The notes under the pieces were generated by a model. That model ran no database searches. It was not told where the DNA came from and worked only from the letters and a program-made list of their open reading frames with translations. A DNA stretch of 37,397 nt. Origin: Eubacteriales bacterium (GTDB taxonomy: Bacteria; Bacillota; Clostridia; Oscillospirales; Oscillospiraceae). Positions 25,442 through 34,606 of this stretch are shown in pieces. Location: contig JAUNND010000016.1 in NCBI GenBank assembly GCA_030531595.1, positions 1 through 37,397 on the forward strand, read 5' to 3'. Every line of letters starts with the position of its first letter. Within the stretch, counting starts at the first letter, position 1. The position numbers were made by a program, and so were the translations under genes.

Positions 25442-25469
25442 TTGACTTTTGTCGGGAGTGTTGTATAAT
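25442..25469 (+). promoter_or_regulatory. Sigma-A promoter of argG
   Basis: TTGACT (25442-25447), a 16-bp spacer, TATAAT (25464-25469). Confidence 0.8.
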
Positions 25470-25499
25470 CTGTGCATAACCTTAAAAGGAGATAAACTT

Positions 25500-26717
<1,218 letters not shown>

Positions 26718-26897: not shown

Positions 26898-28267
<1,370 letters not shown>

Positions 28268-28271
<4 letters not shown>

Positions 28272-29059
28272 AAAAAACACTGATTACCCTTCTCTGCGTA
28301 GTTCTCGCCCTCACCGCCCTCACCGGCTGCGGTGAAAAGGGTACCACCCTCAAATCCGTTCAGAACGCGGGCGAGCTTGTGATTGCCAGCAGCCCCGATT
28401 TTCCGCCCTTTGAAAGCCTCAACAGTGACGGAAGCGTTGACGGCATTGAAATCGAGCTGTGTAACCTCATCTGTGAAAAGCTGGGCGTAAAGCTGAAGAT
28501 CGAGCAGGTCGACTTTGACTCTGTTCTTCCCGGCGTACAGGCAGGCAAGTTCAACATGGGCGTGTCCGGCATATCCATCACCGAGAAACGCCAGAAAAAT
28601 GTCCTGTTTACTGACCCTTACTGTTTAGCCGCACAGGCCATCGTTGTGACCGAGGGCAGTCCCATCACCTGCAAGGCGGATCTTGAGGGCAAGGCAGTCT
28701 CCGTCCAGACCGGCACAACCGCCGAGAGCTACTGCATGGAGCAGGGCTACGCTGTCAATTCCTTCGCAGCCAACAGCGACGCGCAGGCTGCTCTGACCAC
28801 CGGCAAGGTAGACGCATGGGTCATTGACGATCTGACCGCCGCCGAAATGGTCAAGGCCTATAACGGGGACGGAAACGGTACTCTCGTCATTCTCCCCGAA
28901 GCCATGACGACCGAGCCCTACGCCTTTGCCTTCTCCTTCGGAAGTGAGGAGCTTGTCAAGGAGATAAACGGCATCCTCTCCGAGCTTGTGGCAGACGGCA
29001 CGGTGCAGGCGATTTTCGACAAATTCGACGCGCCTTACACTTCGCCCGCGCAGGCTTAA
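28268..29059 (+). CDS. Polar amino-acid ABC transporter substrate-binding lipoprotein
   Basis: A 263-residue binding protein of the family 3 (HisJ/GlnH) type. The signal peptide ends in the lipobox LTGC with Cys21, so it is anchored to the membrane surface. SPDFPPFESLNSDGSVDGIEIEL, GVSGISITEKRQKNVLFTDPY and the hinge region VQTGTTAESYC are typical. The ligand is probably arginine, glutamine, histidine or a related amino acid. The start overlaps the argH stop (ATGA). A hairpin at 29072-29095 (CGGCGGGAG/CTCCCGCCG) follows and may protect or end the mRNA. Confidence 0.9.
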
Positions 29060-29071
29060 AGCAGAAAATCA

Positions 29072-29095
29072 CGGCGGGAGTTCAAGCTCCCGCCG
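29072..29095 (+). terminator. Hairpin after the binding-protein gene
   Basis: CGGCGGGAG, loop TTCAAG, CTCCCGCCG, followed by only three T. Probably a weak attenuator or mRNA-stabilising stem between binding protein and permease. Confidence 0.45.
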
Positions 29096-29126
29096 CTTTG
29101 AAGCTTATTGAAAGAATTTGATTATT

Positions 29127-29194
29127 GTAGGGAACGGTCTTGACCGTTCCGAAATTTGCTGTATTCCGGCGGAACGGTCAAGACCGTTCCCTAC
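29127..29194. repeat. GTAGGGAACGGTC palindromic repeat
   Basis: A 68-bp unit that starts GTAGGGAACGGTCTTGACCG and ends GGAACGGTCAAGACCGTTCC plus CTAC. It is made of two small palindromes. A 28-bp version is the cargo of the element at 7975. Confidence 0.8.
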
Positions 29195-29223
29195 GTATAA
29201 AACTTCAAAGGATGGTATCACCC

Positions 29224-29910
29224 GTGAGCGCATGGTTTTCCAAATTATACGAGACCTTCATCGAAACAGGCTATTACAGTCTGATGCTGGAGGGCTTTAA
29301 AAATACGCTTCTGATCACCGTCGGGGCGCTGATCATCGGTCTTGTGATCGGTACGCTGATAGCGATGATAAAATTTTTTGCGGAGGATGTGCCGATACTA
29401 AGACCGATCAACTGGCTGTGCACCTTCTATGTCACCGCCATACGCGGCATACCGGTCGTTGTGCTGCTGCTGATCTTCTACTTTATCATCATGACCTCCG
29501 CCGACGGCATCACCGTCGCCACTCTCACCTTCGGCATCAATTCCGGCGCGTATATGGCAGAGCTTATCCGGAGCGGCCTCAACGCCGTTGACATCGGACA
29601 GAACGAAGCCGGACGCAGTCTCGGTATGCCGAGGCTCATGACGATGCGCCACATCATTCTCCCCCAGGCTCTGCGCTATATTCTCCCCGCCATCGGCAAT
29701 GAATTCATCGCGCTTCTCAAGGAGACCGCCGTCGCCGGTTATGTGGCCGTCGTCGATCTGACCCGCGCAGGAAACCTCGTGCGCAACAACACCTTCGACG
29801 CCGTCAATCCTCTGATGACCGTTGCGCTCGTTTACCTCATTCTCGTCGTTGTGCTTTCCGCCGCTCTCGGCAGGCTTGAAAAGAAGCTGGCTGTGTCGGA
29901 TCGTAAATAA
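29224..29910 (+). CDS. Polar amino-acid ABC transporter permease
   Basis: A roughly 228-residue HisM/GlnP-type permease with about five helices and the ATPase-contact loop NEAGRSLGMPRLMTMRHIILPQALR. TAIRGIPVVVLLLIFYF is also family-typical. I start at the GTG at 29224, behind AAAGGATGG; ATG 29212 is an alternative. It pairs with the preceding binding protein. No ATP-binding subunit is encoded on either side, so the ATPase must come from elsewhere or has been lost. Confidence 0.9.
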   Translation: MSAWFSKLYETFIETGYYSLMLEGFKNTLLITVGALIIGLVIGTLIAMIKFFAEDVPILRPINWLCTFYVTAIRGIPVVVLLLIFYFIIMTSADGITVATLTFGINSGAYMAELIRSGLNAVDIGQNEAGRSLGMPRLMTMRHIILPQALRYILPAIGNEFIALLKETAVAGYVAVVDLTRAGNLVRNNTFDAVNPLMTVALVYLILVVVLSAALGRLEKKLAVSDRK

Positions 29911-29933: not shown

Positions 29934-30120
29934 CAATGCCAGTAAGATAGGATATACATGTCCGTAGGGCGGGGGTTCTACTCCCGCCGTTACCGCGGAA
30001 AATAACCAACTTTTCGGCGGGAAGACTCCCTCCGGCGGAGGGAGATGTCGGCGAAGACGACAGAAGGAGGGGAGATAGAGAGCCCCCGCCCTACGCAAAA
30101 ACCTTAACTTACCGATATTG
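29934..30120. mobile_element. MITE-like element with GTAAG ends and nested cargo
   Basis: Ends CAATGCCAGTAAGATA (29934) and TAACTTACCGATATTG (30105-30120) match the elements at 7975 and 21636. Flanks AGAACTGTCCC (29923-29933) and AGAACCGTCTC (30121-30131) are 9 of 11 identical, a likely worn target duplication. The cargo at 29964-30094 is the GTAGGGCGGGGG palindrome with the nested CTCCCTCC module. The element fills the permease-carA spacer, and I see no promoter in it. Confidence 0.7.
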
Positions 30121-30162
30121 AGAACCGTCTCCTGTGTACTCTATGTTAAGAAGGACATTCCC

Positions 30163-30579
30163 ATGAAAAAAGCAATTCTCACACTGTCGGACGGCAGCGT
30201 ATTTGAAGGTCTGAGCGTCGGCTTTGAAGCCGATGTGAAAGGCGAAATAGTGTTCACAACGGGAGTCGTGGGCTATCTCGAAAGCCTCACCGCTCCCGAA
30301 TTTGAGGGAAAGATCCTGATGCAGACCTTCCCTCTTATAGGGAACTACGGCGTCATCCCCGAAGAAGTCACCGGAAAAGCGACGGTCGGCGGCTACGTCG
30401 TGCGGGAAATATGCGATGCACCCTCAAATTTCCGCTGCAAATACCCGCTTGAAAAGTTCCTGAAGGATAACAGTATCCCCTGCATCTGCGGCGTTGATAC
30501 GCGGGCGATCACAAAGCTTATCTGCAAAAACCCCGGCATAAGCGCCGAAATCACTATCGGAGGCGAGGAAAATGCCTAA
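30163..30579 (+). CDS. carA: Carbamoyl-phosphate synthase small-chain N-terminal domain only
   Basis: A 138-residue protein matching the N-terminal domain of CarA: ILTLSDGSVFEGLSVGFE, GEIVFTTGVVGYLESLTAP, FPLIGNYG and CGVDTRAITKLI. Normal CarA is about 350-380 residues; its C-terminal class I glutaminase domain, with the Cys-His-Glu triad that frees ammonia from glutamine, is wholly absent. This is not a frameshift: the gene ends in a clean TAA that overlaps the CarB start by 8 nt (ATGCCTAA), leaving no room for a lost domain. The remaining domain is the one that packs on CarB. AAGGAC precedes the ATG. Confidence 0.85.
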   Translation: MKKAILTLSDGSVFEGLSVGFEADVKGEIVFTTGVVGYLESLTAPEFEGKILMQTFPLIGNYGVIPEEVTGKATVGGYVVREICDAPSNFRCKYPLEKFLKDNSIPCICGVDTRAITKLICKNPGISAEITIGGEENA

Positions 30580-33500
30580 AGATAAAAGCATACACAAGGT
30601 ACTGGTCATCGGTTCCGGTCCCATCGTCATCGGGCAGGCGGCTGAATTTGACTACGCAGGTGCACAGGCCTGCCGCGTTCTGCGCGAGGAGGGCATAAAC
30701 GTCGTTCTCGTCAATTCCAACCCCGCCACCATCATGACCGACAAGCACCTTGCCGACGAAATATATCTTGAGCCTCTCACCGCCGAAACGATCGAGCGCA
30801 TTATCGCCATCGAGCGCCCCGACAGTCTCTTAGCGGGTCTCGGCGGACAGACGGGGCTTACGATCGCCATGCAGCTCGGCAAAAGCGGCATTCTGGAAAA
30901 ATACGGCGTCCGTCTTTTAGGTACGAACGTTGAAGCCATTGACAAAGCCGAAGACCGCGAGCTTTTCCGCGAGACGATGACGAAAATGGGTCAGCCTCTC
31001 GTCCCCTCGGCAACCGCAAACGCTCTTGATGCGGCCTTAAAGATTGCCGATGAGATCGGCTATCCCGTGATCGTGCGCCCCGCCTTCACCCTCGGCGGCA
31101 CCGGCGGCGGCATAGCCGCGGACGCGGAGGAATTAAATGTCATTGCGAAAAGCGGACTGGATATGTCCCCTATTTCTCAAATTCTGGTCGAAAAGTGCAT
31201 CTCCGGCTGGAAAGAGATCGAGTTTGAGACGATGCGCGACGCCGCCGGAAACGCCATTGCCGTGTGCTCCATGGAAAACGTCGACCCCGTGGGCATCCAC
31301 ACCGGTGACTCCATCGTTGTCGCCCCCGCCGTCACGCTCTCGCCGAAGGAATACAATATGCTCCGTCAGGCCGCTCTTGATATTATCAGAGAGATCGGCA
31401 TTATCGGCGGCTGCAACTGCCAGTTCGCCTTAAATCCCGACAGCTTTGAATATGACGTTATCGAGGTCAATCCCCGCGTGTCCCGCTCCTCCGCTCTCGC
31501 CTCCAAGGCGACCGGCTACCCGATTGCCAAGATCACGACCCGCCTTGCCCTCGGCTACACGCTCGACGAGATCAAGAACGATATCACCGACAAAATGAGC
31601 GCGTTTTTTGAGCCGACCGTTGACTATATCGTCGTAAAGTTCCCCAAGTGGCCCTTTGACAAGTTCGCCGGTTCCTCACGGAAGCTCGGCACGCAGATGA
31701 AGGCCACCGGTGAAGTGATGTCGATCGCGCCCTCGTTTGAAATGGCGCTGATGAAAGCCGTGCGCGGGGCGGAAATTTCTCTCGACACGCTCAACTGCCC
31801 GCCGCTTTCCGACGCTACGCTGAAGGAACGTCTCAAAGAGCAGAACGACAGACGCATTTTCACGGTCTTTGAAGCTTTGAAGGCCGGTATGAGCGTTTCC
31901 GAAATAAACGCCGTTACAAAGATCGACTGCTGGTTCATTTCCAAAATAAAAAAGCTTGCCGATTTTGAGGCAAAGCTTGCACTTGAAGGTCTTACCGACG
32001 CAAATTACAGAGAAGGCAAGCGTCTCGGCTATCCCGACAAAGCGCTGTGCCGCATTTCCGGCGCAAAGTCTGCCCCCGGATATGAGTTCTCCTACAAAAC
32101 GGCGGACACCTGCGCCGGTGTTGTCGACGCGGTAAAGCCTTACTTCTACTCGACCGCCGATACCGTGTGTGAGTCCCGCTCCTTCTCGAGAAGCGGCAAG
32201 CCGGTCATTATGGTTCTCGGCTCCGGACCCATCCGCATCGGGCAGGGTATCGAGTTCGATTACAGCTCCGTGCACTGCGTGTGGACGCTGCGTGAAATGG
32301 GCTATGACGTGGTCATCGTAAACAATAACCCCGAGACCGTCTCCACCGACTACGACACCGCCGACCGTCTGTACTTTGAGCCGCTGACGCCCGAGGACGT
32401 CATGAATATCATCGGCATTGAAAAGCCCGTGGGTGTTGTTGTGGCATTCGGAGGGCAGACTGCGATCAAGCTGACGCAGTTTCTTGACGGTAAAGGCATA
32501 CGCATTCTCGGCACCTCCGCCGACAGCATCGACACCGCCGAGGACAGAAGCCGTTTTGACGCGCTGCTTGAAAACTTCGGTATCAGCCGTCCGAAGGGCA
32601 TGGGCGTAAATACGCTCGAAGAGGCTCTGGAAGCCGGTGAGACTCTCGGCTATCCTGTACTTTTGCGTCCGTCCTACGTCATCGGCGGGCAGAACATGAC
32701 CATTTCGAGAAACGCCGCCCAGACCGAAAAATATATGAACACCATTCTCTCCGGCGGCATCGACAACCCCGTACTGGTGGATAAATATATGCCCGGGACG
32801 GAGCTGGAAGTGGACGTGATCTCCGACGGGGAGAGCGTGCTCATTCCCGGTATCATGGAGCATATCGAGCGTGCGGGCGTACACAGCGGTGACTCCATCG
32901 CCGTATATCCCCCCTACAATCTCTCGGACAGACAGCTTAAAAATATCTGCTCCGTGTCCGAAAAGCTGGCCATCGCCATCGGCACAAAGGGGCTTGTGAA
33001 TATCCAGTACCTCATCTATCAGGATGAGCTGTACGTCATCGAAGTCAATCCCCGCGCCTCGCGCACCGTACCGTATATCAGCAAGGTGACGAATATCCCG
33101 ATGGTCGATCTTGCTTCAAAAATCATGCTTGGCGCGAAGCTTTCCGATCTGGGCTACGGCAGCGGTCTGTACCGCACCCCGCCTTACTATGCTGTAAAAG
33201 TGCCCGTATTCTCCTTTGAAAAGCTCAACGACGCAAACTCCATTCTCGGTCCCGAAATGAAGTCCACCGGCGAAGTGCTGGGCATCGGCAAGACGCTGGC
33301 GGAGGCGCTGTTCAAGGGACTCACCGCCGCTGGCTTCCGTGTGCCGGAGCTGCATGGCGGGAAAAAGCGCGGCGTGCTTTTAAGCGTGGAGACCGAAGAC
33401 TGCCCCGAGGTCATTTCGCTTGCAAAAACGCTTTATTCCCTCGGTCTAAAACTCTTTGCCACCGCGGATACCGCCGACGCCATCGCAGAGCTTGGCATTG

Positions 33501-34606
33501 ACGTGACCTATGTCAAGAACGCCACGGAGAGCGACGAGCTGAAAGATCTTATGGAGAGCGGTGAGCTGTGCTATATCATCTATACCGGCGCTGTCAAGGA
33601 CGCCACCATGGGTGATTACATTGCCCTGCACCGCCGCGCCATGCAGCTCGGCATCCCCTGCCTTACCTCTCTCGATACCGCCAACGCTCTCGCCCAGATG
33701 ATCTCCGGACGCTACAACCAGAGCAACACCGAGCTTGTGGATATCAACTCCATGCGCACATGGCGGCAGAACATCCCGTTCACTAAAATGCAGAGCTGCG
33801 GCAATGACTATATTTTCATCGAGAATTTCGATAACTCCGTCAACTGCGTCGAGTCGTTGTGCGTCAACCTCTGCTCACCGCACTACGGCATCGGCGGCGA
33901 CGGGATCGTTCTGATGGAGAAATCGGCTGTCGCCGACGTAAAAATGCGCTCGTTCAACCGCGACGGCTCCGAGGGCAAAATGGCGGGCAACAACATCCGC
34001 TGCGTAGGCAAATATATGTACGACAAGGGCTACATCCGCTCCGAATATCTCAGCGTTGAGACCGCCAGCGGCGTACACCGCTTAAAGCTCTACATCCGCG
34101 ACGGCAAGGTAAGCTCCGTATCGGTGGATATGGGCAGAGCGGAGCTGACGGCAAAGAACGTGCCTGTCATCAGCGAAAGCGAAAAAATGATAGATGCCCC
34201 CGTGAAGCTCGGAGGCAAAGATTATAACGTGACCTGTCTGTCCGTGGGCAACCCGCACTGCGTGGTGTTCTGCGAGGGGATCGACGCGCTTGATCTTGAA
34301 AAGCTCGGTTTCGTGTTTGAGCACGCGCCGCTCTTCCCCGAGAGAGTCAACACGGAGTTTGTGCGTGTTGTGAACCGTACAACACTTCGTGTGCGCACAT
34401 GGGAGCGCGGCAGCGGCGAAACGCTCGCCTGCGGAACGGGCGCGTGTGCCGCCGTGATCGCGGCGTGTGAGCTTGGATACTGCGACAAGGGCGGCAACGT
34501 CACGGTAAATCTTTTAGGCGGCGAGCTGACCGTCAACTATACCGACGAGCGCGTCACGCTTTTAGGCGACGCGGTGAAGGTGTTTGAGGGGAGCTTTGAA
34601 TACTGA
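30572..34606 (+). CDS. carB: CarB-DapF fusion: carbamoyl-phosphate synthase large chain plus diaminopimelate epimerase domain
   Basis: A 1344-residue fusion. Residues 1-1060 are a complete CarB: the carboxyphosphate half ([21 protein letters not shown] at the start, [20 protein letters not shown]), the oligomerisation domain, the carbamoyl-phosphate half ([31 protein letters not shown]) and the MGS allosteric domain (about 930-1055). After [10 protein letters not shown], residues 1068-1344 are a full-length DapF, beginning [19 protein letters not shown]. DapF converts LL- to meso-diaminopimelate using two cysteines. Cys1287 (ACGTGA) is present, but the first catalytic position, Cys in CGNG of the family, is Ala1138 (MAGNNIRC). 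GGAGG lies in the carA end. Confidence 0.92.
   Translation: [1344 protein letters not shown]

Follow-up and report, generated by a model that had tools for sequence, protein, structure and literature searches.

The locus examined here raises the question of where a bacterial carbamoyl-phosphate synthase (CPS) obtains its nitrogen when its small subunit, CarA, stops short of the glutaminase domain. The window, which is the whole stretch of 37,397 nucleotides that was analysed, contains a truncated carA gene (carA') that runs directly into an extended carB gene:

30151..30155, plus strand: AAGGA, the Shine-Dalgarno-like sequence of carA'
30163..30579, plus strand: carA', the N-terminal (CPSase small chain) domain of CarA only, 138 aa, without the glutaminase domain
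30178..30531, plus strand: match to PF00988 (CPSase_sm_chain), profile positions 1-119 of 126
30298..30312, plus strand: codons 46-50 of carA', with Glu at position 46 (Ser in intact CarA) and Lys at position 50 (Gln in intact CarA)
30547..30560, plus strand: approximate junction of the putative deletion, from alignment and junction DNA; the last codons of a normal CarA follow
30559..30563, plus strand: GGAGG, the Shine-Dalgarno-like site of carB, inside the 3' end of carA'
30572..34606, plus strand: carB-dapF, CarB residues 1 to about 1060 plus a DapF-like domain, 1344 aa
33770..34603, plus strand: DapF-like domain, residues about 1067-1344, with Ala (in MAGNN) in place of the first catalytic Cys

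The 138-codon gene with its own ribosome-binding site, a TAA stop and an 8-nt overlap with carB, as given in the preliminary description, was confirmed from the sequence: the frame begins with ATG, ends with TAA at 30577-30579 and overlaps carB, whose ATG is at 30572, by 8 nt. PF00988 is the sole Pfam match of carA' (E-value 1.5e-38; 131.9 bits against a cut-off of 27). The glutaminase triad of CarA is Cys269/His353/Glu355, and the domain carrying it, which a glutamine-dependent CarAB requires, is missing from carA'. Because carB overlaps carA', the domain is physically absent; a glutaminase that had been frameshifted rather than deleted was ruled out, there being no DNA between the two genes to hold one. 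The carA' product was aligned with eight full-length CarA proteins of the genus, namely seven partners of carB-dapF operons and the pyrimidine-type protein of G131. It tracks its congeners as far as about residue 130 and finishes with IGGEENA; the operon CarA proteins end in MMGG plus four residues in six of seven cases (e.g. MMGGKSNA) and in MMRGEEA in the seventh (G160). GGAGG was also found near the end of carA in all seven congener ends inspected. Since carA' jumps from about residue 130 to the last residues of a congener CarA, the gene is best read as the product of an internal, in-frame deletion that removed the glutaminase domain and retained the 3' codons with the GGAGG of carB. The earlier view that the domain had been excised with frame and translational coupling intact is borne out by the single PF00988 match and the retained GGAGG. 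Just 5' of carA', at 29950-30110 of the window, intergenic inverted GC-rich repeats (cgtagggcgggggttc ... gagcccccgccctacg) were noted by eye.

The downstream gene had been named correctly as carB, but its fusion to a DapF-like domain, which brings the protein to 1344 aa, had been overlooked. The CarB portion has the usual two ATP-grasp halves, D3 and MGS domain; its residues 1-1045 match E. coli CarB 1-1055 (phmmer), and it is conserved with respect to E. coli CarB in the alignment, inspected to about residue 980. C232, A251 and A314 (E. coli numbering), which we take to be the ammonia-gate residues of CarB, are conserved in that alignment. The C-terminal domain lacks the complete pair of cysteines required by diaminopimelate epimerase, presumably Cys73 and Cys217. 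The first of these is replaced in all 20 motif-matched CarB-DapF proteins, by Ala in 19 and Gly in one (the window, L109, L116, L119, L120, L124-L126, L130, L131, L134-L136, L145, L147, L157, L245 and L247-L249), and is present in the stand-alone DapF of L162. Because of this replacement the fused domain is perhaps no epimerase, and it may be a regulatory or a new catalytic domain.

Upstream of carA' lie argG- and argH-like ORFs and an amino-acid ABC transporter:

25449..26717, plus strand: argG-like ORF, named by sequence reading with no family search; homologues adjoin carAB in relatives
26898..28271, plus strand: argH-like ORF, named by sequence reading
28268..29910, plus strand: binding-protein and permease ORFs of an amino-acid ABC transporter, named by reading; homologues occupy the same place in several congeners

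Names of arginine and pyrimidine genes were assigned by sequence reading and transferred to relatives with tblastn; family matches underlie the names of carA, carB, dapF and the OTCace gene only. Relatives show the order argG-argH-argJ-argD-argF-carA-carB-dapF, or parts of it. The genome assembly to which the window belongs (2.32 Mb, 121 contigs, 92% complete) has one CarB (PF02787) match and a single OTCace-family gene, 63% identical to argF of its congener G120 and 31% identical to a congener's pyrB. With a single CarB and a single, argF-like transcarbamylase, carA'-carB-dapF is, by gene content, an arginine CPS within the assembled genome.

The preliminary description had proposed that the enzyme either depends on ammonia or uses a glutaminase in trans, and had suggested searching the genome for a second carA or a stand-alone glutamine amidotransferase. 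Neither was found: PF00988 gave one match in the 92% complete assembly, making carA' its single CarA, and PF00117, the class I glutaminase domain, gave none, with 14 of 14 control genomes positive for each. Supply of ammonia to CarA'-CarB by another glutaminase or amidotransferase is therefore very unlikely, although the PF00117 search was limited to class I domains; moreover, the retained N-domain would probably occupy the docking site of any second CarA. Ammonia dependence stands as the best reading of the sequence. No pyrG (PF06418) was found in this assembly either, so the absence of PF00117 reflects more than carA and may in part represent assembly gaps; with 121 contigs and 92% completeness, a second carAB could sit in the unassembled part. 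PF00117 is absent from 6 of 61 genomes of the genus (G000, which is the window's own, G127, G144, G154, G164 and G174), one of them 97% complete, and PF06418 from 16 of 61. The window's genome also has one glutamine synthetase-type (PF00120) match (L244; G000:C93:15140-15628), which is partial, covering profile positions 20-178 of 344 in a 704-residue frame.

Across the genus, PF00988 is present in 48 of 102 genomes. The 46 CarA rows counted comprise 41 with an intact triad, four cut by an edge and one without the domain, which is the window; congeners with carA, edge-cut rows aside, have the glutaminase domain whole. CarB was found in 42 and CarA in 27 of a sample of 61 genomes, so that 15 of the 42 CarB-bearing genomes had no CarA found; among the 23 genomes with completeness of 90% or more and contamination of 5% or less, the numbers were 18 and 10. 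Eight pyrimidine loci (L110, L111, L112, L114, L117, L122, L127 and L128) read pyrC-carB-pyrK-pyrD-pyrF-pyrE-pyrB as far as each reaches, with carA absent beside carB; G131 (L121) is a counterexample, its pyrimidine-type carB being adjoined by an intact carA. These CarB-only operons resemble the window in having a CPS gene without an adjoining glutaminase partner, but they lack carA altogether, and their CarB is a different paralog (46-48% identity). A further pyrimidine-type carB without adjoining carA was noted in G174 (L113, 3664-6840), with malic-enzyme-like and fumarase-like ORFs, named by sequence reading, as neighbours. In G120 (95% complete), argF lies directly 5' of carB-dapF and the assembly has no PF00988 match; thus, the N-domain is not needed everywhere, and calling the window's enzyme a minimal CPS was an overstatement.

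At least seven further glutaminase-less genes were identified, two of them short carA genes (L132 and L245) and five encoding single-chain CarA'-CarB-DapF fusions (L157 and L246-L249). A scan of 31 loci yielded L132 (JAFTZM010000028.1, a metagenome-assembled genome from roe deer colon), whose arg operon includes a 140-codon carA', and L157 (MWBL01000003.1), in which one ORF contains PF00988, CarB and DapF domains and no glutaminase. Among the matches listed in an order-wide search of 157 genomes were a 158-codon open frame of G377 (L245) with a CarA-tail-like end, MGGNPNA; four fusions from one genus (L246-L249) with frames of 1503-1514 codons in an argJ-argD-argF context; and a match in G317 (98% complete) that is 100% identical to the carA' of L132. 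CarA N-domain proteins of about 140 residues beside carB, for which a database search had been suggested, therefore exist in L132 (140 codons) and L245 (158 codons). They bear on whether the short gene could be an artefact, a deletion collapsed during metagenome assembly. The genome is indeed fragmented, but the same architecture was assembled independently in L132 and L245, the domain is also absent from the five fusions, the missing segment leaves the frame intact, and the N-domain has residues that are rare where a glutaminase domain is present; such an artefact is extremely improbable. Two of these genomes also bear on a glutaminase in trans. That of L132 holds a second, intact CarAB of pyrimidine type, which could favour such an arrangement. 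That of L157 argues against it: its other full-length CarA, in a pyrimidine operon (L163, 2464-3558), has a broken triad (GIGLGCL), so that both CPS enzymes found in this organism look glutaminase-free.

A census was made of 202 distinct CarA rows, with triad columns taken from alignments: 151 have an intact triad, 33 a broken triad and eight no domain, and ten are edge-cut. Where rows agreed completely over a short N-domain stretch, only one was counted, and frames with a match starting after profile position 12 were left out. The 31-locus scan contributed 29 rows, a set biased by similarity to the window, and the 157-genome search 38 rows, from 40 loci among the matches listed (34 high-scoring and six of odd frame length). 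The family sample, the least biased set, comprises 85 rows (71 intact, 10 broken and 4 edge-cut), after omission of 5 of 90 matches: that of the window itself and four fragments at contig edges in G038, G058 and G081. Truncation at a contig or locus end accounts for short CarA in ten rows (e.g. G119, G139 and G341), which were set aside as edge-cut.

The 33 broken rows are not independent, ten of them forming one clade in a 34-row tree. In 32 of them another residue stands in for the Cys (Gly 28, Ser 3, Ala 1); the remaining row, L166, still has Cys and His and is missing Glu alone. These dead-triad proteins (e.g. L138, L150, L194 and L252) resemble the window in having lost glutamine-site residues, but in them the domain is still present, with Cys to Gly the commonest change (28 of 33) and Gln50 retained in 31 of 33. 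Intact and dead forms occur in close relatives: L130 and L131 have CarB sequences 94% identical over the first 800 codons, and the CarA of L130 is intact, whereas that of L131 is dead (Cys to Ser, His to Ala, Glu to Gly). No second CarA-length PF00117 match was found in 11 of the 15 searched assemblies with a domain-less or dead CarA; in the rest, the second CarA is intact (L131, L132 and L156) or broken (L157).

Built from 28 rows, the CarB tree puts the domain-less genes in four separate places (the window; L132 together with L157; L245; L246-L249), on inner branches that are often weak (11 of 25 starred) and with uncertain placements of L109, L245 and the f3 fusions. A single origin of all eight domain-less rows was rejected (log-likelihood lower by 111; AU p 1.25e-5), as was a clade of the three separate short genes (lower by 114; p 1.31e-5). 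The fewest changes that account for deletion among arginine-type rows number four, and the window and L132 were also separate in the earlier 34-row tree. Whole-operon transfer possibly lies behind the gene-tree pattern. On the evidence of these sequences, relatives of the window have repeatedly lost the CPS glutaminase, by deletion, fusion or a broken triad, and since the same activity has been lost so often, the window's enzyme probably runs on free ammonia.

The retained N-domain was examined for signs of adaptation or decay. Position 46 of carA' aligns with position 47 of E. coli CarA, where we take Ser47 to be a glutamine contact. Ser stands there in 150 of the 151 intact and 7 of the 33 broken rows, but in none of the eight that lack the domain. 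At position 50, 150 of the 151 intact rows and 31 of the 33 broken ones have Gln, and all eight domain-less rows have Lys; elsewhere Lys50 occurs only in L156, a dead CarA that has kept the domain, and in the edge-cut L154. The probability of an identical residue at one of 50 columns in four lineages under random placement is 2e-5, a figure for a column chosen post hoc among columns that are unequally mutable. The contrast between Lys50 in all domain-less rows and Gln50 in nearly all intact ones makes the retained N-domain look like a functional, adapted domain and not a relic. In 94 intact arginine-like CarA proteins, 50 columns are conserved; 19 of these are kept in all eight domain-less genes, and 25 are changed in the fusion L157. 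Against eight intact relatives, over 120 codons, carA' has pN of 0.24-0.27 and pS of 0.62-0.80, a divergence that may partly predate the deletion. Its dN relative to that of CarB is 1.88, against 1.18 among intact relatives. Selection on carA' seems to persist, but in a looser or altered form, and the faster divergence of the N-domain relative to CarB makes partial decay possible. A pseudogene reading is unsupported, the frame being intact and pN well below pS; the dN ratio is raised, however.

A related reading holds that CarA' is a decaying remnant that serves the translation of carB by coupling, with CarB alone acting as an ammonia-dependent enzyme. It would suit the position of carB's GGAGG inside carA' codons, the raised dN ratio and the ability of G120 to do without carA. 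It is unlikely nonetheless, given the intact frame and low pN (part of the divergence may be older than the deletion), the shared Lys50 and conserved columns of the eight domain-less genes, and the in-frame fusion of the N-domain to CarB in other lineages, where coupling would be pointless.

Taken as a whole, carA'-carB-dapF very probably encodes an arginine-pathway, ammonia-dependent bacterial CPS without glutamine use, analogous to animal CPS I and reached independently. An in-frame deletion would have taken the glutaminase domain of CarA, sparing the N-domain, which we take to correspond to domain S1 of animal CPS I, and the ribosome-binding site of carB. CarB would retain its synthetase machinery and draw free NH3 from the cell. 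The N-domain would probably be docked on the carboxyphosphate half of CarB, closing its surface, and may guide NH3 to the tunnel gate, CarA' thereby capping CarB and shaping the entrance. It is somewhat more likely than not that obligate ammonia dependence of CPS arose repeatedly among bacteria of this order, through deletion or inactivation of the CarA glutaminase, and that the orphan N-domain was refashioned (Q50K, with the glutamine contact Ser46 lost) as a dedicated cap or ammonia port of CarB, in some lineages within one chain.

The nearest counterparts among characterised enzymes are E. coli CarAB (CPS II; 1BXR and 1JDB) and human CPS I (5DOT and 6UEL). The window shares its CarB architecture and sequence with bacterial glutamine-dependent CarAB, and CarA' residues 2-125 align with E. 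coli CarA 3-126, but the glutaminase domain is absent and CarB has a DapF-like C-terminal domain. Animal CPS I is the ammonia-using, N-acetylglutamate-activated enzyme of liver. The window is likened to it by its probable use of ammonia, and CarA' 4-124 align with residues 35-166 of the 5DOT chain, so that CarA' corresponds to part of the CPS I N-terminal moiety. CPS I, however, keeps an inactive glutaminase domain (Cys to Ser), whereas the window has none; and CPS I is one chain, whereas the window's subunits are encoded by two genes, a single chain being found in L157 and L246-L249. The window's CPS should work in a CPS I-like manner, yet it lacks both the tested structural features of CPS I and the defining glutaminase of CarAB.

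In general, bacterial CPSases are described as relying on glutamine as donor, and the E. coli enzyme as accepting ammonia only when its concentration is very high (PMC6245113), which counts against the ammonia reading. Animal CPS I is described as the one CPS type that does not use glutamine; for it an external NH3 path has been proposed, which starts between Glu82 and His142 and follows the boundary between the two moieties as far as the gate (PMC4655335). For Blochmannia, it has been suggested that an ordinary carAB might use excess ammonia (PMC3017870). No description of a bacterial CPS without a glutaminase domain was recognised in a literature search conducted mainly outside subscription journals. 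Within the literature searched, the components are known, and no account was found of their combination in a bacterial CPS whose glutaminase has gone repeatedly, through excision, fusion or loss of the triad.

For genome interpretation, the annotation of carA alone is an unsafe basis for inferring a glutamine-dependent CPS. Should these enzymes indeed use ammonia, CPS I would no longer be the only one of its kind; close pairs such as L130 (intact) and L131 (dead) would allow the transition to be studied, and what the CarA N-domain does by itself could be tested directly. A set of bacteria, many of them from gut or rumen by their record titles, would then channel free ammonia straight into arginine.
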